64,000 bases of DNA, from contig JAVHLM010000005.1 in NCBI GenBank assembly GCA_031082125.1, positions 1 through 64,000 on the forward strand, given 5' to 3'. The stretch's first letter is position 1, and the number at the start of each line of letters is the position of its first letter. A program made the position numbers and the translations under genes. The notes under the pieces were generated by a model. It did no database searches. It saw only the letters and a program-made list of their open reading frames with translations, and was not told the origin of the DNA. This document shows positions 2,398-38,262 of the stretch, in pieces. This DNA is from Candidatus Eremiobacterota bacterium. Its GTDB lineage: Bacteria > Vulcanimicrobiota > CADAWZ01 > Ess09-12.

Positions 2398-3369
2398 ATG
2401 TTAGACGACAAGGTTATCTTACTGACGGGGGGTACTGGATCATTCGGTCAGAAGTTCGTTGAAATGGCGCTGAAAAGACACAACCCAATGGTGATTCGTG
2501 TCTATAGCAGGGATGAGCTCAAACAATGGGAAATGATGAAGCTATATGGCAACGAATCACAAGTTCGGTTCTTCATAGGCGACGTGAGAGACAAAGACAG
2601 ACTCGACAGGGCAATGGATGGCGTCGATATGGTAATTCACGCTGCAGCATTAAAGCAGGTGCCTTTTTGTGAATATAACCCTATCGAAGCGGTAAAGACC
2701 AATATTTTAGGAGCTCAGAACATTATTGAGTGCGCTATTGATCACAACATACCAAAGGTGGCTGCCATAAGCACCGATAAAGCTGTAAGCCCCGTGAATT
2801 TGTATGGTGCGACAAAAATGTGCATGGAAAAATTGCTTATTGCTGCAAATGCTTATGTCGGAGGAAAAAGGCAGACAAGAATGTCCTGTATTCGTTATGG
2901 AAATGTTGTCGGGAGCAGGGGAAGCGTAATCCCTTTATTTCTGGAGCAGAAGAATACAGGAAAGATAACGATCACTCATAAGGAGATGACAAGGTTCTGG
3001 ATTACTCTGGAGCAGGGAGTTGAATTTGTCATAAAAAGCGTTTCCATCATGCACGGAGGTGAAGTGTTTATTCCCAAAGTGCCAAGTATGAGAATTATGG
3101 ACCTGGCTGAAGCAATTGCACCTGATTGTGAAATAGACTTTGTGGGGATAAGGCCCGGAGAAAAAATTCATGAAAGCCTGCTTACCGCAGATGAAGCCCG
3201 TCATTCATTGGTGTTTGACGATTGCTTCATAATTGAGCCTGAACATACCTGGTGGAACAGAGATAAGATCACAGGAGGCAAAGAGCTGCCAGAGGGGTTC
3301 TGTTATGAAAGTGACAAGAATGATTGGTGGCTTTCCAAGGATGAACTGCAGAAAATGATAAGCGAATAA
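2398..3369 (+). CDS. pseB: UDP-GlcNAc 4,6-dehydratase/5-epimerase (inverting), PseB
   Basis: This 323-aa enzyme performs the first step of pseudaminic acid synthesis. It converts UDP-GlcNAc to the UDP-4-keto-6-deoxy-L-arabino intermediate. The N-terminal Rossmann motif GGTGSFGQKF (residues about 10-19) binds NADP. STDKAVSP and YGATKMCMEK (catalytic Tyr-x-x-x-Lys, near 141) are typical of the inverting short-chain dehydratase family. Length matches the family. A purine-rich Shine-Dalgarno (GAGGAG) precedes the ATG, and the stop overlaps the pseC start by one base. The adjacent aminotransferase supports PseB over other dehydratases. Confidence 0.93.
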   Translation: MLDDKVILLTGGTGSFGQKFVEMALKRHNPMVIRVYSRDELKQWEMMKLYGNESQVRFFIGDVRDKDRLDRAMDGVDMVIHAAALKQVPFCEYNPIEAVKTNILGAQNIIECAIDHNIPKVAAISTDKAVSPVNLYGATKMCMEKLLIAANAYVGGKRQTRMSCIRYGNVVGSRGSVIPLFLEQKNTGKITITHKEMTRFWITLEQGVEFVIKSVSIMHGGEVFIPKVPSMRIMDLAEAIAPDCEIDFVGIRPGEKIHESLLTADEARHSLVFDDCFIIEPEHTWWNRDKITGGKELPEGFCYESDKNDWWLSKDELQKMISE

Positions 3370-4526
3370 TGAGACTCATTCCTTACGGCCACCATTCCGT
3401 TGACCCATCAGACATTGATGTGGTCCTGGCTGTGCTCAGATCTGATTGGCTTACTCAGGGACCCCGTATCGAAGAATTCGAAAGAGCATTATGTGAGTTT
3501 GCTGGAGCACACTATGCAGTCGCCTTTTCACATGGAACGGCAGCTCTGCATGGTGCTTGTTATGCGGCAGGTATAGGGAAAGAAGATGAGGTCATCACCT
3601 CACCAAATACTTTTGTGGCAACTGCAAATAGTGTGCTTTACTGTGGCGGAAAGCCCGTGTTTGCTGATATTGAGGGAGAAACATTAAATATAAATCCGGC
3701 AGAAATAGAAAAAAGGCTCACTACTCATACAAAAGCCATAATGCCGGTTCATTTTGCGGGAAATCCCTGCGATATGGAAAAGATTGATTTTATTGCGAAA
3801 AAGAATAACTTGATGGTCATAGAGGATGCGGCTCATGCATTGGGCTCAATATATAGAAACTCTCCCATAGGAGCCTGCAAATATTCAAATTTTGCAGTAT
3901 TCAGCTTTCATCCGGTGAAAGCAATCGCCACAGGCGAGGGCGGTGCAGTTCTTACCAATGATAGGGAGTTTTATCAAAGACTGCTATTATTCAGGAATCA
4001 CGGTATAACGAAGGAATCTGATAAATTTCAGTACAGGGAGGATTCTGATGGCCCCTGGTACTATGAGATGCAGGATCTTGGTCATAATTTCCGTCTTACA
4101 GATATTCAGGCTGCATTGGGATTGTCGCAGATGAAGAAATTGAAGAGCTTTATTCTGAGAAGAAGAGAAATTGTTGAAAAATATAATAGTGTGTTTCAAG
4201 AATTGGACTTTGTAAGGATTCCCGTTGAAGCAGATGATTCTTTCTCGGCCTATCATCTTTTTGTTCTCCAGATAGATTTTGAGAGATTGAACAAAAGAAG
4301 AAAAGATGTAATGGATGAATTGTTGAAACGTTCAGTTGGCACACAAGTTCATTATATTCCGGTTCATCTTCAGCCTTATTACAGGAATAAATACGGCTAC
4401 AAGCGTGGTGACTATCCCGTATCGGAGAATTATTACAGCCGGGCGCTTACAATTCCGCTCTTCCCTAAAATGACTGATGCCGAAGTGGATTATGTCATAC
4501 AGAACGTCCTGCAGGTATTGAGATAA
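3369..4526 (+). CDS. pseC: UDP-4-keto-6-deoxy-sugar aminotransferase, PseC
   Basis: This 385-aa protein is a PLP-dependent DegT/DnrJ/EryC1 aminotransferase that adds the 4-amino group to the PseB product. The PLP lysine is in FSFHPVKAIATGEGGAV (Lys near residue 184). EDAAHALGS carries the Asp that contacts the pyridine ring, and FSHGTAALHGA is the phosphate-binding region. The start codon overlaps the pseB stop and the next gene begins directly after its stop, so translation is probably coupled. Specificity for the L-altrose series is inferred from the pseB neighbour. Confidence 0.9.
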   Translation: MRLIPYGHHSVDPSDIDVVLAVLRSDWLTQGPRIEEFERALCEFAGAHYAVAFSHGTAALHGACYAAGIGKEDEVITSPNTFVATANSVLYCGGKPVFADIEGETLNINPAEIEKRLTTHTKAIMPVHFAGNPCDMEKIDFIAKKNNLMVIEDAAHALGSIYRNSPIGACKYSNFAVFSFHPVKAIATGEGGAVLTNDREFYQRLLLFRNHGITKESDKFQYREDSDGPWYYEMQDLGHNFRLTDIQAALGLSQMKKLKSFILRRREIVEKYNSVFQELDFVRIPVEADDSFSAYHLFVLQIDFERLNKRRKDVMDELLKRSVGTQVHYIPVHLQPYYRNKYGYKRGDYPVSENYYSRALTIPLFPKMTDAEVDYVIQNVLQVLR

Positions 4527-5378
4527 ATGAGCAACAGAGGAATTATTATTCAGGCGAGAGCTTTATCTTCAAGGTGCCCAGGTAAGATTTTCAGGTATTT
4601 ACCCGATGGAAGCGGAATAACTGTGCTTGAGCAGGTGATTAGAAGAGTAAAAAGAGTGAAGGGTGCAAAGGTAATTATTGTTGCGACATCATGCCGGCAA
4701 GAAGATGATGAAGTGATAAGACTGGTTCAAAACGAGAATGTACTGAGTTTCAGAGGCAGCGAAGAGCACGTCCTGTCGAGGTTTTATCTTGCAGCGTCTT
4801 CCTGTGAATTGACTGATATAATAAGAATTACTGCAGATTGCCCCTGCATTGACCCAATGATCATTGATGAGCTCATTCAAAATCACGTAAGGCGGGGAAT
4901 GGATTACACCAGTAACACCCTGAAAAGAACTTTCCCCCGGGGGCTTGATGCTGAAGTAATATCTTTTAGTGCTTTGGAGAAAGCTTACAAAAATGCAAGT
5001 GAAGATTTTGAACAGGAACATGTGACTCCTTATATTTACAGGAGCCATCCAGAGCAGTTTCATGTCATGAACCTGGAAGCAGAAGGAAGGATAAATAATC
5101 CATCAATCAGAGTGACTCTTGATACTGAAGAGGATTACGCGCTTTTATGTGCAGTTTATGATTATCTGTATGATGAAGCAACTCTTTTCAGAACAGCAGA
5201 TATTATAGATCTGTTTGAAAAGAAACCCTGGCTTTCCCTGATCAATAAAAGGATTAATCAAAAAAGCTTGACCTCTTCAATTGAAGAAGAGTATAAAGAG
5301 GCTTTGGATCTTATGGAGCGGAACGGTCTGAAAAAAGCCAGGAAATTTATCATAGAGCAAGTGGGAAAATATGCATAG
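4527..5378 (+). CDS. pseF: CMP-pseudaminate cytidylyltransferase, PseF/SpsF type
   Basis: This 283-aa nucleotidyltransferase probably activates pseudaminic acid with CTP. The N-terminus IIIQARALSSRCPGK is the nucleotide-binding loop (Q-A-R-x-x-S-x-R-x-P-G-K) of the SpsF/NeuA-like family. RITADCPCIDP contains the acidic metal-binding residues. The protein is longer than a minimal PseF by a helical tail of about 40 residues after position 240. It starts immediately after the pseC stop and overlaps the next gene by 8 bases. SpsF-type and PseF-type enzymes are hard to separate by eye. Confidence 0.82.
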   Translation: MSNRGIIIQARALSSRCPGKIFRYLPDGSGITVLEQVIRRVKRVKGAKVIIVATSCRQEDDEVIRLVQNENVLSFRGSEEHVLSRFYLAASSCELTDIIRITADCPCIDPMIIDELIQNHVRRGMDYTSNTLKRTFPRGLDAEVISFSALEKAYKNASEDFEQEHVTPYIYRSHPEQFHVMNLEAEGRINNPSIRVTLDTEEDYALLCAVYDYLYDEATLFRTADIIDLFEKKPWLSLINKRINQKSLTSSIEEEYKEALDLMERNGLKKARKFIIEQVGKYA

Positions 5379-6153
5379 GTTCGGCCTTAAGCTCTGGTCA
5401 ACCAATGAGAATTATGTTATGGAAGCGCAGAAACTTTTTGCCGCTGATTATTTCAGCTATATTGAGCTTTTTGTTGTGCCGGGTTCATTCGGGAAATGCA
5501 TTACACTGTGGAGAAACATAAAGGCTCCCTTTGTGATTCATGCTCCCCATTACATGAGTGGCCTGAATCTGTCACAGTATTCAGATCGGCAATCAAATTT
5601 TGCAATGATCAGAGAAGTCATGGAATTCGCTGATATGTTAAAAGCTGATGAAATAATATTTCACCCGGGTGTGGGAGGAGATATTCAGGAGACAATTGCT
5701 CAGCTCAAAGATATTAATGATCAACGAATACTCATAGAGAATAAGCCTTACCGTGCCATTGTTGATGAATTGACATGCAATGGGAATTCTCCCGAAGATA
5801 TTAAATTGGTTATGGATAACACGGGCTGCGCTTTCTGTCTTGATATCGGACATGCAATATATTCTGCAAATTTCAGAAAAGTGGATCCGTGGGAGTATTT
5901 TAATAAATTCCTGGAATTAAGACCAGTGATGTATCATTTAACTGACGGTGATTTTCAGGGAGTGACTGATCAGCACAAGCATTTTGGAGAGGGCGATTTT
6001 CCAATAGAGAGAATATTAAAGACAATTCCTCAAGACTCAAGAATTACCATTGAAACAAAAAGAGAATCTGAAATATCCCTTGATGATACAATGGAGGATG
6101 TGGAATATTTGATGAGAATCTGCAATTGTTCAGGATCTGATGTAAAGGCCTGA
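5371..6153 (+). CDS. Endonuclease IV-like TIM-barrel metal hydrolase/isomerase
   Basis: This 260-aa protein has the AP-endonuclease-2/xylose-isomerase-like TIM barrel fold. The ligand set of an endonuclease IV trinuclear zinc site appears in order: His in IHAPHY (near 51), His in IIFHPG (near 97), Glu in LIENK, Asp and His in CLDIGHA, His in MYHLTD, Asp-x-His in DQHKHFGEGDF, and Glu in TIETK. The DQHKHFGEG segment resembles the endonuclease IV signature. It lies inside the pse operon at the place where a UDP-sugar hydrolase (PseG) would be expected, and no PseG is visible. I infer a sugar-nucleotide hydrolase or sugar isomerase role rather than DNA repair. Confidence 0.7.
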   Translation: MHRFGLKLWSTNENYVMEAQKLFAADYFSYIELFVVPGSFGKCITLWRNIKAPFVIHAPHYMSGLNLSQYSDRQSNFAMIREVMEFADMLKADEIIFHPGVGGDIQETIAQLKDINDQRILIENKPYRAIVDELTCNGNSPEDIKLVMDNTGCAFCLDIGHAIYSANFRKVDPWEYFNKFLELRPVMYHLTDGDFQGVTDQHKHFGEGDFPIERILKTIPQDSRITIETKRESEISLDDTMEDVEYLMRICNCSGSDVKA

Positions 6154-6164
6154 TAGTGAGTCCC

Positions 6165-6710
6165 ATGATCAATTTAAGAAAGAGCTTTGAATTCGAAGAG
6201 GTGAGCCTCATCAATTTTATTCATCTTAAAGTACAGGAAAGAGAGATGGTGCTGAACTGGAGAAATAACGAGGTCATTAGGAAATGGATGTATAATAGTG
6301 AGATCATATCAATGAAGGAGCATCTTGAATTCCTGGCCGGCTTGAAATCCTCTGACCATATGCATTATTGGCTGGTATGGACAAGAGAAAGCGGTTATAT
6401 CGGGGTAATATCACTTAACAAAATAAACAAGCTTCATAAGAATGCGTATATTGGAATATACTCAGATCCAGACAAAAAAGGAATAGGCACAATACTCATT
6501 CGGATGGTCTTCCGTCTTGCATTTCAAATCGCTTGTCTTCATACATTGAAGCTGGAAGTGATTGAAGACAATCTGAGAGCCTTGGAGTTTTACAGGAAGA
6601 ATGGCTTTATCGTAGAGGGAACACTGAAAGAATTTGTTTTTATGGATAATGGATGGAAAAATGTGATAATTATGGGAATTACTCAAAAGGAAATAGACAA
6701 TGGCCTTTAA
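6165..6710 (+). CDS. pseH: GNAT acetyltransferase, PseH
   Basis: This 181-aa GNAT N-acetyltransferase probably acetylates the 4-amino group of the PseC product with acetyl-CoA. MVLNWRNNEVIRKWMYNSE is the usual start of sugar GNATs of the RimJ/PseH type. IGIYSDPDKKGIGTILI is the acetyl-CoA loop, and RALEFYRKNGFIVEG is the conserved C-terminal core. I prefer the ATG at 6165 to the GTG at 6156, although the latter cannot be excluded. The gene overlaps pseI by 11 bases. Confidence 0.85.
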   Translation: MINLRKSFEFEEVSLINFIHLKVQEREMVLNWRNNEVIRKWMYNSEIISMKEHLEFLAGLKSSDHMHYWLVWTRESGYIGVISLNKINKLHKNAYIGIYSDPDKKGIGTILIRMVFRLAFQIACLHTLKLEVIEDNLRALEFYRKNGFIVEGTLKEFVFMDNGWKNVIIMGITQKEIDNGL

Positions 6711-7749
6711 GATGGCAGGACAGACTATCGGAGATGATAATTCTTGTTTCATAGTTGCTGAATTGTCTTCAAACCATGCAAAAAATCTGGAAATAGCAAT
6801 CAACACCATAAAGGCAATCAAGGAATCCGGCGCTGATGCGGTCAAATTACAGACATACACGCCAGAGAGCATGACACTAAAAAGTGAAAAAGACTTTTTC
6901 AGGATCAGGCAGGGGACTATTTGGGATGGGAAGACTCTCTATGACCTGTACGAGGAAGCTTATACTCCATGGGAATGGCATTCAAAACTGAAAACCGCTG
7001 CCGAAGAGCTTGGTCTTGTCTGTTTCTCTGCTCCCTTTGATAAGGCTGCTGTTGATTTTCTGGAGGATTTGAATTTTCCTGCTTATAAGGTGGCATCTTT
7101 TGAGATAACAGATATCCCATTGATAAGATATATTGCATCAAAGGGCAAGCCAATAATACTCTCAACAGGTATAGCCAATTTATCGGAGATAGAGGAGGCC
7201 GTGAATGTCTGCAGAAGTCAGGGAAACCTGCACATTGCATTGTTAAAATGCACATCGGCCTATCCGGCGCCATTTGATGAAATCAATTTGAAAACGATCC
7301 CCGATTTATTGAATACTTTCAATGCCGTTATCGGGCTTTCAGACCATACCATGGGCTATTCAGTGGCAATTGCCTCAATTGCACTTGGAGCAAAAATCGT
7401 AGAAAAGCATTTTATTCTGGATAGGAGTCTCAAGACGCCTGATGCTTCCTTTTCAATGGAACCGCATGAATTCAGAGCGATGGTAAGCTCTATTAAAGAA
7501 GCTGAGAAGGCAATGGGTAAAGTAAGCTATGACCTCACTGAAAGCACCATGAAATCAAGGGAGTTTGCACGTTCTCTTTTTGTGGTGCAGGATATACAAT
7601 GCGGTGATGTCTTCACAGAGGAAAACATTCGCTCTATCCGGCCAGGATTCGGTCTGCACCCAAGATATCTTGATTCAGTGCTCGGAAGGAAATCGCATGG
7701 TGCGCTCAGTGCAGGGACACCTTTACAATGGGAAATGATAGACAAGTAG
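6700..7749 (+). CDS. pseI: Pseudaminic acid synthase, PseI (NeuB family)
   Basis: This 349-aa synthase condenses the 2,4-diacetamido-trideoxy hexose with phosphoenolpyruvate. VAELSSNHAKN, GADAVKLQTYTPESMT, GLSDHTMGYSVAIA and VEKHF are conserved active-site segments of the NeuB TIM barrel. A SAF (antifreeze-like) domain follows from about residue 285 (LFVVQDIQCGDVF to AGTPLQW). Starts at 6700 or 6712 are both possible; 6700 gives coupling with pseH. Choice of PseI over NeuB or LegI rests on the pse neighbours. Confidence 0.9.
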   Translation: MAFKMAGQTIGDDNSCFIVAELSSNHAKNLEIAINTIKAIKESGADAVKLQTYTPESMTLKSEKDFFRIRQGTIWDGKTLYDLYEEAYTPWEWHSKLKTAAEELGLVCFSAPFDKAAVDFLEDLNFPAYKVASFEITDIPLIRYIASKGKPIILSTGIANLSEIEEAVNVCRSQGNLHIALLKCTSAYPAPFDEINLKTIPDLLNTFNAVIGLSDHTMGYSVAIASIALGAKIVEKHFILDRSLKTPDASFSMEPHEFRAMVSSIKEAEKAMGKVSYDLTESTMKSREFARSLFVVQDIQCGDVFTEENIRSIRPGFGLHPRYLDSVLGRKSHGALSAGTPLQWEMIDK

Positions 7750-7806: not shown

Positions 7807-8949
7807 ATGAGATATTGCACAAAATGCATCATGCCTGATACAAGGCCTGAGCAGGTTTTTGATGAAGCGGGAGTTTGTGATGCCTGCCGATCCTGGAAGA
7901 AGAGAAGTACAGAAATTGACTGGGAGCAGAGAAAGAGAGAATTCGAAGAAATCCTGAGTAAGTACAGAAATCGTGAGGGAACCTGGTGGGATTGTATCAT
8001 TCCCGTTAGTGGCGGGAAAGACAGCTGCCATCAGGCATATACGATGAAATATATGTTCGGTATGAATCCTCTCCTTGTAAACTTTATCCCCTGTGAAATG
8101 ACGGACATCGGGCTCAAAAATGTCTTATTTCTTCGTGATTTGGGTTTTGATATCATTCAGGTAGGAGCGAACAGGAAAATATACAGGCAGATGGTCCGGA
8201 AGGGTTTCTTTGATCTCGGAGATTGTTGCTGGCCTGAACATATAGGGATTTTTACTGCACCGGTGAGAGTTGCTGTTCAATACAGAATCCCTCTGATAAT
8301 ATGGGGTGAAAATCCTCAGTTTGATTATGGAGGCCCTGCCTCGAAAAGAGAGAGCAACTACCTGGATCGTAATTGGCTGGAGCAGTTTCAGATGTTGGGT
8401 TACAGGATATCCGACCTGTATGAGGAAGAAGAGTTTGAAAAGAAAGACCTGCTTGTTTTTGAATACCCTTCAGATGCTGAATTGAGAGAAGTAGGGGTAA
8501 CAGGTCTCTTCCTGGGGTACTATACAAAATGGAATGCCAATGACCATGTCAAAAAAATGTCGGCTCTTGGATGGAATGCCAATCCTGACGGTCCGGTGGA
8601 GGGAGCGTATTATGATTATGAAAATCTTGATTGCAAGTGGATAGCGGGTCTCCATGATTATATGAAGTTCATAAAATATGGCTACGGGAGAGCCACGGAT
8701 CAAATGTGCATTGAAATAAGAAGCGGGAGACTTGAACGGCAGAAGGCATTGAAAATGGTGAGAGAATATGAGGGGAAAATACCAAGGAAATATATGCCGG
8801 ATTTTTTGAGATTTATTAATTGTTCGGAGGAAGATTTTTTCAGAACGCTCACCAGGTTTACGCATAGAAAGATTTTTGTGAGAAACAGTGATGGATCATT
8901 CAAACGTGACAAAAATGGAGAACTGATAAAAATTGATTACGGTTATTGA
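7807..8949 (+). CDS. pseA: N-acetyl sugar amidotransferase, PseA/WbpG family
   Basis: This 380-aa ATP-pyrophosphatase-type amidotransferase probably converts an N-acetyl group to an acetamidino group. The PP-loop is PVSGGKDSCHQ (near residue 68). CTKCIMP and CDAC at the N-terminus form a likely zinc site, as in the WbpG family. The length is usual. The next two genes, hisH- and hisF-like, are the known partners that supply ammonia, as in Pseudomonas wbpG-hisH2-hisF2. It overlaps hisH by 17 bases. In a pse cluster the likely product is an acetamidino form of pseudaminic acid. Confidence 0.88.
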   Translation: MRYCTKCIMPDTRPEQVFDEAGVCDACRSWKKRSTEIDWEQRKREFEEILSKYRNREGTWWDCIIPVSGGKDSCHQAYTMKYMFGMNPLLVNFIPCEMTDIGLKNVLFLRDLGFDIIQVGANRKIYRQMVRKGFFDLGDCCWPEHIGIFTAPVRVAVQYRIPLIIWGENPQFDYGGPASKRESNYLDRNWLEQFQMLGYRISDLYEEEEFEKKDLLVFEYPSDAELREVGVTGLFLGYYTKWNANDHVKKMSALGWNANPDGPVEGAYYDYENLDCKWIAGLHDYMKFIKYGYGRATDQMCIEIRSGRLERQKALKMVREYEGKIPRKYMPDFLRFINCSEEDFFRTLTRFTHRKIFVRNSDGSFKRDKNGELIKIDYGY

Positions 8950-9562
8950 TTTAAAGATAGGAAATATAAATAGCGTAAGCCGCGCTCTGAGGCATTTAAA
9001 AGTAGAACATGGGGTCTCAAATGAAGATTCATTTATCGAGAAATCAGATAAGCTGATATTACCGGGTGTAGGTAACTTTTCCGAGGCAATGAAGAGAATG
9101 AAGGAAATGGGACTTGACTCCGTCATAAAAAATTTGGTGTCTGAGCGTGGAATTCCCATCCTGGGAATATGCCTTGGCATGCAGCTCTTTGCGAGCTATG
9201 GAGAGGAAGGTAGCAGGGTGGAAGGTCTGGACCTGGTGAAAGGGAAAGTGATTTTTCATCGTGCTTCAAGAATGGGCCTTCGGATCCCTCACATCGGCTG
9301 GAATGATGTGAATTCAGGCAAAATAAAGATATTCAAGTCGGTGGAGCAGAGTTCATGCTTCTATTTTACCCATAGTTATGAGTTTATCCCCGATGATCAG
9401 GAACATATAGAACTGGGTTATACCCATTATGGTCTTGATTTCGTATCTGCTCTGCAGAAAGGGCATATCTTTGGCACACAGTTTCATGTGGAAAAGAGTC
9501 AGAAGGTTGGATTAAAAGTCCTCTCCAATTTTTGTGAGGGAAGCTTTTATGCTGAGAAATAG
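8933..9562 (+). CDS. hisH: HisH-like glutamine amidotransferase subunit
   Basis: This 209-aa class I glutamine amidotransferase releases ammonia from glutamine. The nucleophile lies in LGICLGMQLF (Cys near 82). The His-x-Glu pair is in FGTQFHVEKSQ near the C-terminus. The start is a TTG that gives MITVIDLKIGN, the canonical HisH N-terminus, so the weak start codon is well supported. Other histidine genes are absent, so it most likely serves the sugar amidotransferase PseA rather than histidine synthesis. It overlaps hisF. Confidence 0.88.
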   Translation: MITVIDLKIGNINSVSRALRHLKVEHGVSNEDSFIEKSDKLILPGVGNFSEAMKRMKEMGLDSVIKNLVSERGIPILGICLGMQLFASYGEEGSRVEGLDLVKGKVIFHRASRMGLRIPHIGWNDVNSGKIKIFKSVEQSSCFYFTHSYEFIPDDQEHIELGYTHYGLDFVSALQKGHIFGTQFHVEKSQKVGLKVLSNFCEGSFYAEK

Positions 9563-10301
9563 AGTCATTCCTATCGTTTTGCTTGTGGATTATGCCGTAG
9601 TGAAGACTATACAATTCACCACAAGAAGAAATCTTGGAAATCCTGTGGTTATTGCCAATATTTATGAAAACCGTAAAGTTGATGAAATAGTATTTCTTGA
9701 CATTGATGCTTCTAAACAAGGAAGAGGTTTGGATGTTGATACAATAAATGCGGTTGTAGAAGATTGCTTTATGCCCATTACTATTGGGGGGGGACTGAGG
9801 AACTGCGAAGATATAGAAAAGGCTTTGAGAGCCGGCGCTGATAAGGTTTCTTTGAACAGCATTCTCCTGGAAAACATGGAATTTTTGAAGGAAGCGGTCT
9901 CCGTCTTTGGTAGTCAATGTATCACGGTATCAATAGATGTCAAAAAGAACTGTAATAACGATTATATTGTTTACTCTCATGCCCACAAGGATGTAAACTG
10001 GTCACTTACTGAGTTCTTGAGGCTGGTCAGTGAATACAAGGCTGGTGAGATATTGCTTAATAATGTTGACCTGGATGGAACAATGAAAGGCTATGATTTG
10101 CAATTAATCAACTTGGTTTCAAGTCTTTCCAGCATTCCCGTTATTGCCGCAGGTGGTGCCTCAAAACCTTCTGATTGCGCTGATGCCATCAAAGCGGGTG
10201 CATCAGCCGTAGCGGCATCAAGCATATTTCATTTCACAAGTATTACTCCAAGAATTTGTAAGAGAGCCATGGCAGAAGCCTCCATACCTGTCAGATTATG
10301 A
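9549..10301 (+). CDS. hisF: HisF-like ammonia-channelling cyclase subunit
   Basis: This 250-aa HisF-type TIM barrel forms the partner of HisH. VVFLD-type strands are visible: EIVFLDIDASKQGR, MPITIGGGLRN, GADKVSLNS and IPVIAAGGASKPSD. Some canonical HisF residues of the histidine cyclase are replaced; for example the first strand reads VIPIVLLVDYAVVKT. That fits a paralogue used to deliver ammonia to a sugar amidotransferase. I chose the ATG at 9549; a GTG at 9534 is in frame but adds residues not seen in the family. Confidence 0.88.
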   Translation: MLRNRVIPIVLLVDYAVVKTIQFTTRRNLGNPVVIANIYENRKVDEIVFLDIDASKQGRGLDVDTINAVVEDCFMPITIGGGLRNCEDIEKALRAGADKVSLNSILLENMEFLKEAVSVFGSQCITVSIDVKKNCNNDYIVYSHAHKDVNWSLTEFLRLVSEYKAGEILLNNVDLDGTMKGYDLQLINLVSSLSSIPVIAAGGASKPSDCADAIKAGASAVAASSIFHFTSITPRICKRAMAEASIPVRL

Positions 10302-26521: not shown

Positions 26522-26594
26522 CGCATCTTCGACAGTCACTTTTTTGAAAGCCTTAGTTCATGCGTGATTGAGCGTTGAATATAATTCATTGCCA

Positions 26595-28262
26595 CTACAC
26601 AAGCTTCAATTGGGTATACCCCGGAGATTCCCCAGAAATCTTATGAGAACAGGCTTTCTGAGGAGAAATGAGCTGAGCCCGGGGAGGGGGGCGGACGCCT
26701 GCCGCCCGGAATATGTCGTTCACACCAGGAGGAAACTCCGTGCGCAGCAGAAATTCACTGTCCCCCACGTTGACCTTCACTGCGGAAATCTGCTCAAGCC
26801 TGAGAATTATCTCCTTCCAGGGAATACTCACCGACTCCGACTCCAGTCTCTTTTTCAGCTCTACCATAAGCTGAAGCGCCAGGAAGCAGCTGAAAAGATG
26901 TGCCTTCACCATATCTTCTTTCCGGTGAAAGAAAGGGCGGGCCTCAAGAATATCCTTGAGATCCCTGAAAAGCGCTTCTACATCCTGAAGGCCCTTGTAG
27001 GTGAGGGCAACTTTCTCTTTGGGAAGATCGGTATTCGTGCGAAGCACATATTTCCCGTCATACCTCGCTTCCCGCTGTACCTTCAACTCATCGATATGCA
27101 ACGCTTCCCTCTCGACAGAGAGATATGCGCGATAGCCCTTGTTGCCTATGAGGCTTCTTGCTTCGCCACCTGCCAGCTTCTCCCGGAGATCATCAAGAAT
27201 GGCCTCCCGCTTCTTTTTGTCGCGTTCGGCTTCCTGGGGGTTGTAGCAGAGGACATAGCGCTGATGCCGATAGGACACCTCTTTTACTCGGAGATTTTCC
27301 CGGACTTCGAGGTATCTCCCACGTTTGCCCATCACTTTCGTTTTGACGTGTCTGGTCTTTCTCATCTTCATCCCGACGATATACTTGAAGCCGAGTGCCG
27401 TGAATCGCTTGAGGTTTTTCGCACTCACCATACCCCGGTCACACACCAGCACCACGTCTTTTACGTAAAATCGTTTTTTCAGGGAAGATGCCACATCGCG
27501 TATGGTTTCCACATCAGCAGTGTTGCCTGGCCACCACATACAGGAAAGAGGGGTGCCCTCGCGGCTCATTACCACTCCAAAGACTATCTGGTTGTCCTGT
27601 GCGTGGCCATCTTTGGAAAACCCTCTCTTTGCAAAGTTCTTCGGGCCTTTCCCTTCGAAGTAGAGCGTGCTTGTGTCGAAGAATACGATATCCACTTCGT
27701 TGATGAGCATATGGCGCCGGCGCTCAAAAAGCTGATCCTCCACGTATTCTTTCTTCCCCGCAAGGAAGCCAAGCGCGCGGTAAAAGTGCTGGAGCCCGAT
27801 ATTCTCAAGTCCTTCGCCATAGATGGCACGCTTCACCCACGAGCTCCCGAGGAGATCGCTTCCCGGTTTCACAAGGCGCTGAAGCGCGATGGCAAAAAGC
27901 GTCTTCTCCACATCAAACTGAAATGCTCTTTCTGTGAGAGCGGCCTTGATGATTTCTGGTATCTGAAGCTGTTCCCACAGCCTTCTGAATATGAGAGAAG
28001 GACCCCACGATTTCGACCATTCCGCAGAGAGAGCGCCCTCCTGGTGAAGGTTGAGGACCTGCAGGTTCTGGCTGAACTTCGCCATACTTTCCACAAAGCG
28101 GTCAAGCTGTCCGCTGGGGACGAGCTCATCCATTGTGCCCAGGGTGGCGATTACCTTCTGGCGCACTTTCTTGTCCTCTCTGCTGGTTTCACAGATCTGG
28201 AGGTAGTCGTATTGTTTTCTTCCGCTGGTCACTTTCTTCACTCGTATAAACATAGCACTCAC
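26595..28262 (-). CDS. IS1634-family transposase (left copy)
   Basis: This 555-aa DDE transposase of the IS4-superfamily IS1634 group starts MFIRVKKVTSGRKQYDYLQI (from Met4). It contains VDIVFFDTSTLYFEG (first Asp), VVLVCDRGMVSAKNL (second Asp) and, near residue 430, GLQDVEALFRDLKDIL (the Y/E region with the catalytic Glu). The copy at 36348-38015 encodes an identical protein, pointing to recent transposition. The promoter at 28263-28291 sits directly against the start codon, so the message may be leaderless. The start could be Met1 or Met4 (28253). Confidence 0.92.
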   Translation of the reverse strand: MSAMFIRVKKVTSGRKQYDYLQICETSREDKKVRQKVIATLGTMDELVPSGQLDRFVESMAKFSQNLQVLNLHQEGALSAEWSKSWGPSLIFRRLWEQLQIPEIIKAALTERAFQFDVEKTLFAIALQRLVKPGSDLLGSSWVKRAIYGEGLENIGLQHFYRALGFLAGKKEYVEDQLFERRRHMLINEVDIVFFDTSTLYFEGKGPKNFAKRGFSKDGHAQDNQIVFGVVMSREGTPLSCMWWPGNTADVETIRDVASSLKKRFYVKDVVLVCDRGMVSAKNLKRFTALGFKYIVGMKMRKTRHVKTKVMGKRGRYLEVRENLRVKEVSYRHQRYVLCYNPQEAERDKKKREAILDDLREKLAGGEARSLIGNKGYRAYLSVEREALHIDELKVQREARYDGKYVLRTNTDLPKEKVALTYKGLQDVEALFRDLKDILEARPFFHRKEDMVKAHLFSCFLALQLMVELKKRLESESVSIPWKEIILRLEQISAVKVNVGDSEFLLRTEFPPGVNDIFRAAGVRPPPRAQLISPQKACSHKISGESPGYTQLKLV

Positions 28263-28291
28263 ATATTAACAAATTCCATCACAATTGTCAA
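28263..28291 (-). promoter_or_regulatory. Promoter of left transposase
   Basis: Reading the minus strand there is TTGACA (28291-28286), a 17-bp spacer, and TAATAT (28268-28263), close to the sigma-70 consensus. Transcription would begin about 6-7 bases further on, inside or at the first codons. This implies a leaderless or nearly leaderless transcript. The same promoter is present at 38016-38044 in the right copy. Confidence 0.7.
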
Positions 28292-28323
28292 TATGTTGTG
28301 TAATTTATTGGCACTACATTTTT

Positions 28324-28355
28324 CGAAAATTTTGCAATTTGCAAGAAAATTTTCG
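28324..28355. repeat. Inverted repeat upstream of transposase
   Basis: CGAAAATTTT and AAAATTTTCG form 10-bp arms around a 12-bp centre, between the transposase promoter and the IS end. It may be a host-factor or transposase binding site, or a hairpin that protects against read-in transcription. An identical copy lies at 38077-38108. Confidence 0.55.
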
Positions 28356-28378
28356 CATGGTTATGCGGTTTTGATTTT

Positions 28379-28438
28379 CAAAATTGGATTTCACTGTCGA
28401 AGATGCGTCAAAATTGGATTTCACTGTCGAAGATGCGT
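28379..28438. repeat. 30-bp tandem duplication of the IS right end
   Basis: Two exact 30-bp units (28379-28408 and 28409-28438) begin CAAAATTGG and end GATGCGT. The right IS copy has a single unit. Because the target duplication lies outside the second unit, the duplication belongs to the element as inserted or arose afterwards at its end. Confidence 0.9.
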
Positions 28439-28472
28439 TTGAGCAATTATAAAAATATAATAAAATCAAGCG

Positions 28473-36274: not shown

Positions 36275-36347
36275 CGCATCTTCGACAGTCACTTTTTTGA
36301 AAGCCTTAGTTCATGCGTGATTGAGCGTTGAATATAATTCATTGCCA

Positions 36348-38015
36348 CTACACAAGCTTCAATTGGGTATACCCCGGAGATTCCCCAGAAATCTTATGAG
36401 AACAGGCTTTCTGAGGAGAAATGAGCTGAGCCCGGGGAGGGGGGCGGACGCCTGCCGCCCGGAATATGTCGTTCACACCAGGAGGAAACTCCGTGCGCAG
36501 CAGAAATTCACTGTCCCCCACGTTGACCTTCACTGCGGAAATCTGCTCAAGCCTGAGAATTATCTCCTTCCAGGGAATACTCACCGACTCCGACTCCAGT
36601 CTCTTTTTCAGCTCTACCATAAGCTGAAGCGCCAGGAAGCAGCTGAAAAGATGTGCCTTCACCATATCTTCTTTCCGGTGAAAGAAAGGGCGGGCCTCAA
36701 GAATATCCTTGAGATCCCTGAAAAGCGCTTCTACATCCTGAAGGCCCTTGTAGGTGAGGGCAACTTTCTCTTTGGGAAGATCGGTATTCGTGCGAAGCAC
36801 ATATTTCCCGTCATACCTCGCTTCCCGCTGTACCTTCAACTCATCGATATGCAACGCTTCCCTCTCGACAGAGAGATATGCGCGATAGCCCTTGTTGCCT
36901 ATGAGGCTTCTTGCTTCGCCACCTGCCAGCTTCTCCCGGAGATCATCAAGAATGGCCTCCCGCTTCTTTTTGTCGCGTTCGGCTTCCTGGGGGTTGTAGC
37001 AGAGGACATAGCGCTGATGCCGATAGGACACCTCTTTTACTCGGAGATTTTCCCGGACTTCGAGGTATCTCCCACGTTTGCCCATCACTTTCGTTTTGAC
37101 GTGTCTGGTCTTTCTCATCTTCATCCCGACGATATACTTGAAGCCGAGTGCCGTGAATCGCTTGAGGTTTTTCGCACTCACCATACCCCGGTCACACACC
37201 AGCACCACGTCTTTTACGTAAAATCGTTTTTTCAGGGAAGATGCCACATCGCGTATGGTTTCCACATCAGCAGTGTTGCCTGGCCACCACATACAGGAAA
37301 GAGGGGTGCCCTCGCGGCTCATTACCACTCCAAAGACTATCTGGTTGTCCTGTGCGTGGCCATCTTTGGAAAACCCTCTCTTTGCAAAGTTCTTCGGGCC
37401 TTTCCCTTCGAAGTAGAGCGTGCTTGTGTCGAAGAATACGATATCCACTTCGTTGATGAGCATATGGCGCCGGCGCTCAAAAAGCTGATCCTCCACGTAT
37501 TCTTTCTTCCCCGCAAGGAAGCCAAGCGCGCGGTAAAAGTGCTGGAGCCCGATATTCTCAAGTCCTTCGCCATAGATGGCACGCTTCACCCACGAGCTCC
37601 CGAGGAGATCGCTTCCCGGTTTCACAAGGCGCTGAAGCGCGATGGCAAAAAGCGTCTTCTCCACATCAAACTGAAATGCTCTTTCTGTGAGAGCGGCCTT
37701 GATGATTTCTGGTATCTGAAGCTGTTCCCACAGCCTTCTGAATATGAGAGAAGGACCCCACGATTTCGACCATTCCGCAGAGAGAGCGCCCTCCTGGTGA
37801 AGGTTGAGGACCTGCAGGTTCTGGCTGAACTTCGCCATACTTTCCACAAAGCGGTCAAGCTGTCCGCTGGGGACGAGCTCATCCATTGTGCCCAGGGTGG
37901 CGATTACCTTCTGGCGCACTTTCTTGTCCTCTCTGCTGGTTTCACAGATCTGGAGGTAGTCGTATTGTTTTCTTCCGCTGGTCACTTTCTTCACTCGTAT
38001 AAACATAGCACTCAC
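36348..38015 (-). CDS. IS1634-family transposase (right copy)
   Basis: This 555-aa transposase is identical to the left copy, with the same DDE regions (VVFFDTS-like VDIVFFDTSTLYF, VLVCDRGMVS, VEALFRDLKD). Its promoter is at 38016-38044. There is no damage visible, so the element should be able to move. Homologous recombination between the two direct copies could delete the 7.8-kb interval. Confidence 0.92.
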   Translation of the reverse strand: MSAMFIRVKKVTSGRKQYDYLQICETSREDKKVRQKVIATLGTMDELVPSGQLDRFVESMAKFSQNLQVLNLHQEGALSAEWSKSWGPSLIFRRLWEQLQIPEIIKAALTERAFQFDVEKTLFAIALQRLVKPGSDLLGSSWVKRAIYGEGLENIGLQHFYRALGFLAGKKEYVEDQLFERRRHMLINEVDIVFFDTSTLYFEGKGPKNFAKRGFSKDGHAQDNQIVFGVVMSREGTPLSCMWWPGNTADVETIRDVASSLKKRFYVKDVVLVCDRGMVSAKNLKRFTALGFKYIVGMKMRKTRHVKTKVMGKRGRYLEVRENLRVKEVSYRHQRYVLCYNPQEAERDKKKREAILDDLREKLAGGEARSLIGNKGYRAYLSVEREALHIDELKVQREARYDGKYVLRTNTDLPKEKVALTYKGLQDVEALFRDLKDILEARPFFHRKEDMVKAHLFSCFLALQLMVELKKRLESESVSIPWKEIILRLEQISAVKVNVGDSEFLLRTEFPPGVNDIFRAAGVRPPPRAQLISPQKACSHKISGESPGYTQLKLV

Positions 38016-38044
38016 ATATTAACAAATTCCATCACAATTGTCAA
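38016..38044 (-). promoter_or_regulatory. Promoter of right transposase
   Basis: TTGACA (38044-38039), a 17-bp spacer and TAATAT (38021-38016) on the minus strand duplicate the promoter of the left copy. Confidence 0.7.
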
Positions 38045-38165
38045 TATGTTGTGTAATTTATTGGCACTACATTTTTCGAAAATTTTGCAATTTGCAAGAA
38101 AATTTTCGCATGGTTATGCGGTTTTGATTTTCAAAATTGGATTTCACTGTCGAAGATGCGTTTTA

Positions 38166-38262
38166 CAGGAAATTCGGCTTTGTGGAGAACCAAAGCAGTG
38201 AATATAAGGGCAGAGCTCTGATGAATATGGTGCTTGATCTAAAAAAGATAAAAGAATTATAA
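38166..38262 (+). pseudogene. GNAT toxin-like acetyltransferase, 3' part
   Basis: This 97-base tail continues the interrupted gene: RKFGFVENQSSEYKGRALM, then the C-terminal KKIKEL and TAA at 38260-38262. The phase across the IS (443 + 97 bases = 180 codons) is exact, which shows that the gene was intact before insertion. Confidence 0.8.

Follow-up and report, generated by a model that had tools for sequence, protein, structure and literature searches.

A TIM-barrel protein of the AP endonuclease 2 superfamily as a probable replacement of PseG in pseudaminic acid synthesis

Which enzyme frees the sugar from its UDP carrier in a pseudaminic acid (Pse) operon where no pseG can be recognized? The question is raised by a stretch of 64,000 nucleotides (contig JAVHLM010000005.1, assembly GCA_031082125.1) from a Candidatus Eremiobacterota bacterium of the phylum Vulcanimicrobiota, further referred to as the window. 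An earlier note, made from the sequence of the window, had claimed that the pse genes are contiguous, that no PseG is recognizable, and that a TIM-barrel protein encoded between pseF and pseH seems to keep all trinuclear-zinc ligands of endonuclease IV and may act in place of PseG. It proposed modeling of the protein and a search for co-occurrence of its family with pse genes lacking pseG, and it named a second site in the genome, with PseG beside other pse genes, as evidence that would speak against the replacement. The genes concerned are listed below.

2398–3369, forward strand: pseB, UDP-GlcNAc 4,6-dehydratase (inverting); TIGR03589, 485.8 bits (cut-off 407.75)
3369–4526, forward strand: pseC, UDP-4-amino-4,6-dideoxy-AltNAc transaminase; TIGR03588, 509.9 bits (cut-off 423.5)
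4527–5378, forward strand: pseF-like CMP-sugar transferase; PF02348, 79.1 bits, function assigned from family and position
5371–6153, forward strand: TIM barrel of the AP endonuclease 2 superfamily, proposed replacement of PseG (UDP-sugar hydrolase); PF01261, nine ligands, AlphaFold2 model, operon slot, exclusion and fusions
6156–6710, forward strand: pseH, N-acetyltransferase; TIGR03585, 149.8 bits (cut-off 93.1)
6700–7749, forward strand: pseI, pseudaminic acid synthase; TIGR03586, 505.1 bits (cut-off 340.25)
7807–8949, forward strand: PseA/WbuX-type N-acetyl sugar amidotransferase; TIGR03573, 346.1 bits, above the cut-off
8933–9562, forward strand: HisH-like glutaminase of the amidination module; TIGR01855, 203.3 bits, above the cut-off
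9534–10301, forward strand: HisF/WbuZ-like partner in the amidination module; TIGR03572, 266.3 bits, below the cut-off of 299.7; PF00977, 204.3 bits

The gene order is thus PseB-PseC-PseF-[TIM barrel]-PseH-PseI, followed by the WbuX/PseA, HisH and HisF module up to position 10301, all on one strand. The TIM-barrel gene overlaps the end of pseF by 8 bases, and its stop codon is separated from the start codon of pseH by 2 bases. All four of the PseB, PseC, PseH and PseI equivalogs score above their curated cut-offs within one operon, which identifies a pseudaminic acid pathway and bears out the claimed contiguity. For the pseF-like gene no PseF equivalog was found above the cut-off, the match being to the general cytidylyltransferase family PF02348 only. 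The interval 4527–6710 given for the finding in the earlier note contains the TIM-barrel gene (5371–6153) and also spans pseF and pseH.

The WbuX/PseA, HisH and HisF-like genes (7807–10301) directly 3' of pseI suggest that the product is an acetamidino-modified pseudaminic acid. Upstream of pseB, at 462–2384, a protein of 640 amino acids is encoded that has no Pfam match above the cut-off; judging by its position, it may be a glycosyltransferase using CMP-Pse. Elsewhere in the window, the ORFs at 26568–28442 and 36321–38201 (624 and 626 amino acids) resemble two copies of a single gene; each has an antisense ORF of 555 amino acids, located at an identical offset.

The absence of PseG holds for the entire genome. 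A six-frame search of all 7.43 Mb (97.6% complete) with the PseG profile TIGR03590 yielded a single partial match of 20.6 bits (cut-off 153.55) spanning profile positions 190–268, so that both the earlier claim that PseG is not recognizable and the check for a copy elsewhere came out in favor of a replacement. Weak matches to this profile in genomes carrying the TIM-barrel gene were considered as hidden PseG and rejected: nearly all of them cover the C-terminal third of the profile only, lie in frames of about 380 codons, and occur in most of the genomes searched. This is the pattern expected of MurG-like proteins, as suggested by the cross-match of MurG with the PseG profile. The genome to which the window belongs encodes a second nonulosonic acid synthase (L060, G000:C6:8000-27000; 284 bits to PseI, below the cut-off) near a NeuC gene scoring above its cut-off (461 bits), that is, a separate Leg/Neu-type cluster.

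The TIM-barrel protein belongs to the AP endonuclease 2 superfamily (PF01261, 45.7 bits, gathering score 31.1). With TIGR03590 (curated cut-off 153.55 bits) it produces no match at E 0.1, and it passes no curated equivalog cut-off at all: the nearest NCBIfam model is CbiR (NF041277) with 31.3 bits of the required 105, and MNIO / MbnB-TglH-ChrH (PF05114) gives 21.7 bits, below its gathering score of 25. The AlphaFold2 model, built with an alignment of 15 sequences, has pLDDT 94.2 and pTM 0.91 and consists of alternating strands and helices. The nearest structures found by Foldseek are MJ1311, TTHB071, endonuclease IV and MbnB with TM-scores of about 0.7; several folds of sugar isomerases and epimerases are also among the structural matches. 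The modeling proposed earlier returned a TIM barrel with endonuclease IV among its nearest structural matches.

The nine metal positions of endonuclease IV correspond, by alignment, to H57, H98, E123, D158, H161, H189, D200, H202 and E228 of the protein, in agreement with the ligand claim of the earlier note. In 48 of the 50 family members this set is complete, the exceptions being a lysine at the position of H161 (L020) and an asparagine at the position of D200 (L145). The former member, a divergent homologue (L020, 6362–7126), is encoded in the pse cluster of a TGA-recoded Gracilibacteria-like MAG; judging by this substitution, it may have no activity or work with a smaller number of metals.

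Homologues were collected by scanning genome contigs. The window protein alone retrieved nothing, while an alignment of this protein with a homologue from genome G010 retrieved 15 loci; the starting homologue, from the same phylum, adjoins pseI and pseH. The TIM-barrel gene resides in pse clusters of Termititenax-like Margulisbacteria (L007), Omnitrophota (L010, L013, L014), Gastranaerophilales (L012), Vulcanimicrobiota (L017), Methanolobus vulcani (L018) and the recoded Gracilibacteria-like MAG mentioned above. In one genome of Deferribacterota (L055), the TIM-barrel gene lies apart from the pse cluster, which lacks PseG. No family members were found on the viral contigs and plasmids scanned, and the phage collection contained one match, on an unannotated 5-kb scaffold without clear pse neighbors.

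If the protein performs the step of PseG, the two should exclude each other, and this is what we observed. None of the 16 genomes with the family has PseG above the cut-off; PseI is above the cut-off in 11 of them and not in the other 5. Of the 384 Omnitrophota genomes, 60 encode PseI above the cut-off, and eight of these 60 carry the TIM-barrel family (at least 240 bits), in all eight cases at 39–1238 bases from the pseI match. PseG was found in none of these eight genomes and in 50 of the 52 without the TIM-barrel gene (Fisher's test p = 1.8e-8, relatedness ignored). Here PseG was counted as present at the best E-value of 1.5e-17 or lower, which is looser than the curated cut-off, passed by only 23 of the 60. 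The separation is clean, as the eight carriers and two double negatives have E-values of 6e-9 or worse and no genome falls between that value and 1.5e-17. The double negatives (G539, locus L203; G346, locus L204) may accomplish the step in yet another way or be incomplete drafts. NeuC, another UDP-sugar hydrolase, was not detected in seven Omnitrophota carriers (G153, G156, G157, G369, G467, G302, G233). In the phylum of the window, eight genomes have PseI above the cut-off; two have the TIM-barrel gene and no PseG, and six have PseG and no TIM-barrel gene. Hence the co-occurrence search proposed earlier revealed mutual exclusion among PseI-carrying genomes of two phyla, many of the compared genomes being incomplete MAGs. 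In Gastranaerophilales, where PseG is too rare for a test, 34 of 383 genomes contain the TIM-barrel family and 2 of 383 a PseG-like match, with no overlap.

The exchange is also visible in individual operons. In locus L207, from the phylum of the window, the order is PseB-PseC-PseF-PseG-PseH-PseI, identical to that of the window with PseG in the slot of the TIM-barrel gene. Likewise, in Omnitrophota PseB-PseC-AT3-AKR-PseF-PseG-FMT-PseI (L206) has a counterpart PseB-PseC-AT3-AKR-PseF-TIM-PseI (L013). The two proteins form similar fusions: six genomes with PseG encode it with a C-terminal PseH-like domain, and the TIM-barrel protein carries a GNAT domain at its C-terminus in L201 (PseH profile TIGR03585, E = 2.3e-15, below the cut-off) and, with a weaker match to PseH, in L007. 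On a tree of 54 PseI sequences, the type of hydrolase switches about 10 times, and well-supported branches make at least 5 of the switches necessary; the synthases of G175 (TIM-barrel gene) and G256 (PseG) are sisters with support 100/87. Because the hydrolase has changed repeatedly on this tree, the exclusion is not the trace of one inherited event.

Taken together, the exclusion, the repeated exchange, the same slot and the same fusion are best explained by replacement of PseG, and the anatomy of the active site points in the same direction. The central claim of the earlier note is thereby supported, and from these genomic patterns we put the probability that the protein encoded at 5371–6153 takes the place of PseG in pseudaminic acid synthesis, as a pathway role, at about 0.84. 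It would then catalyze the fourth step, the hydrolysis of the presumed substrate UDP-2,4-diacetamido-2,4,6-trideoxy-beta-L-altrose, the product of PseH, and deliver the free reducing sugar to PseI.

The chemistry would differ from that of PseG, which cleaves the C–O bond. The three-metal site of endonuclease IV attacks phosphorus. Within the superfamily, CbiR, a phosphodiesterase, provides a precedent for hydrolysis of phosphodiesters in small molecules (PMC7733943). By analogy with these two enzymes we infer cleavage of a P–O bond in the UDP-sugar. The endonuclease-IV-type ligand set would hold three metals, and a metal-bound hydroxide would attack phosphorus of the diphosphate, the beta-phosphorus being the most probable target, with the anomeric oxygen as the leaving group and UDP and the sugar as products. 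Most likely, then, the protein hydrolyzes the UDP-sugar at phosphorus in a metal-dependent manner.

The same type of site would also suit a UDP-sugar pyrophosphohydrolase producing UMP and sugar-1-phosphate, so that PseG would be replaced by two enzymes, this one and a separate phosphatase. Three-metal sites of the AP-endonuclease type act on phosphodiesters, the phosphodiesterase CbiR leaves a phosphorylated product (PMC7733943), and HAD-family hydrolases are encoded in two clusters with the TIM-barrel gene (L018, L202) and directly upstream of this gene in L008. However, such clusters have no phosphatase in common and the pse operon of the window shows none, and we therefore prefer direct release of UDP; the HAD gene of L018, L202 and L203 accompanies an ATP-grasp gene, and the genome of L203 has no TIM-barrel gene. 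The HAD phosphatase was accordingly rejected as an obligate second enzyme, and the two-enzyme route seems rather unlikely to us. The pair of the HAD hydrolase and the ATP-grasp_3 gene, located together near pseI in all three clusters with or without the TIM-barrel gene, is possibly a tailoring module of NulO clusters.

Two other readings assign the protein to a different step. Many sugar isomerases and epimerases belong to PF01261 and, as noted above, several such folds resemble the model; the protein could then modify the sugar before or after PseI, the UDP-hydrolase step being left to an unlinked enzyme. This would leave unexplained the exclusion of PseG and the like-for-like swaps of slot and fusion. 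Moreover, in a comparison of the family profile with PDB sequences, MJ1311 and endonuclease IV/APN1 were found at E < 0.001, and no characterized epimerase scored below E 0.01. Retention of all nine ligands of the three-metal site exceeds what epimerases with a single metal require. We regard this reading as very improbable. Nor does it seem at all probable that the protein tailors, for example, a Pse variant whose synthesis also happens not to need PseG, the exclusion being indirect. Several clusters with the TIM-barrel gene do contain a class III aminotransferase, an aldo/keto reductase and a formyltransferase, so that they may make something other than plain Pse, but the PseG cluster L206 has the same extra genes, and the window contains the plain six-gene set with PseG alone exchanged.

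Replacement of PseG by the TIM-barrel protein would be non-homologous. The protein resembles PseG (TIGR03590; FlmD in Caulobacter) in the proposed reaction, the operon position and the fusion to PseH-like GNAT domains. PseG is, however, a hydrolase with the GT-B, glycosyltransferase-like fold, whereas the protein studied here has no match to the PseG profile but a predicted metal site, and its model finds its best matches among TIM barrels of the AP endonuclease 2 superfamily, not among GT-B folds. With the DNA-repair nuclease endonuclease IV (Nfo, deoxyribonuclease IV) it shares the fold and all nine metal ligands; it differs in the score (18.9 of the required 333 bits with NF002196) and in His60, which stands in the family where endonuclease-IV-like comparison proteins carry the tyrosine of the HAPY motif. 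Separate endonuclease-IV-like proteins are encoded in genomes with the TIM-barrel gene, e.g. G302 and G175, and the linkage to pse genes argues against cleavage of AP sites in DNA. CbiR, the phosphodiesterase of cobamide remodeling and the best NCBIfam match, is from the same superfamily; its clade is defined by linkage to cobamide genes (PMC7733943), and the present family is linked to NulO genes. The nearest solved folds, MJ1311 (PDB 3wqo) and TTHB071 (3ayt), are 18–21% identical to the protein at a TM-score of about 0.7 and offer no function to transfer.

Family members outside pse clusters, in Spirochaetota (L006, L008, L019), Alphaproteobacteria (L015, L016) and a subgroup of Gastranaerophilales (L252–L256), suggest a wider substrate range. 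The last subgroup is divergent, lies in clusters where no full complement of pse genes is recognized, and may act on a different substrate. When the family tree is viewed from the side of the endonuclease-IV-like proteins, members linked to pse genes branch off first and the remaining ones are nested, the key branch having modest support (89/59). Three Gastranaerophilales members adjoin a NeuB-type synthase only 28–30% identical to PseI, and in the two genomes of Brevinematales a NeuB-type synthase occurs with no PseG above the cut-off and no NeuC match; these cases may point to a broader function of the family in the synthesis of nonulosonic acids. We tentatively suggest, while considering it somewhat doubtful, that the family comprises general metal-dependent UDP-sugar hydrolases that feed nonulosonic acid synthases beyond PseI, attack phosphorus rather than carbon, have traded places with PseG on many occasions in bacteria and archaea, and may replace NeuC/LegG beside NeuB-type synthases, as in Brevinematales and some Gastranaerophilales. 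In one spirochaete (G151), the TIM-barrel gene is accompanied by a PseG-like domain within a fusion protein of 822 amino acids. A protein of this length at 442–2910 of L021, a spirochaete MAG, reads as a PseG-like domain between an N-terminus resembling cytidylyltransferases and a methyltransferase-like C-terminus.

The literature searched, which includes only a minority of subscription papers, describes the pathway and the superfamily, but neither the replacement of PseG by such an enzyme, nor its proposed reaction, nor the recurrence of the exchange. As prediction of Pse pathways relies on six defined genes, clusters without PseG appear incomplete. If our reading is true, such clusters in Omnitrophota, Gastranaerophilales, Margulisbacteria, Vulcanimicrobiota, the Gracilibacteria-like lineage and the archaeon Methanolobus would be complete by virtue of an unrelated enzyme. 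The same swap in several phyla very probably represents a second route by which the sugar is released from UDP.
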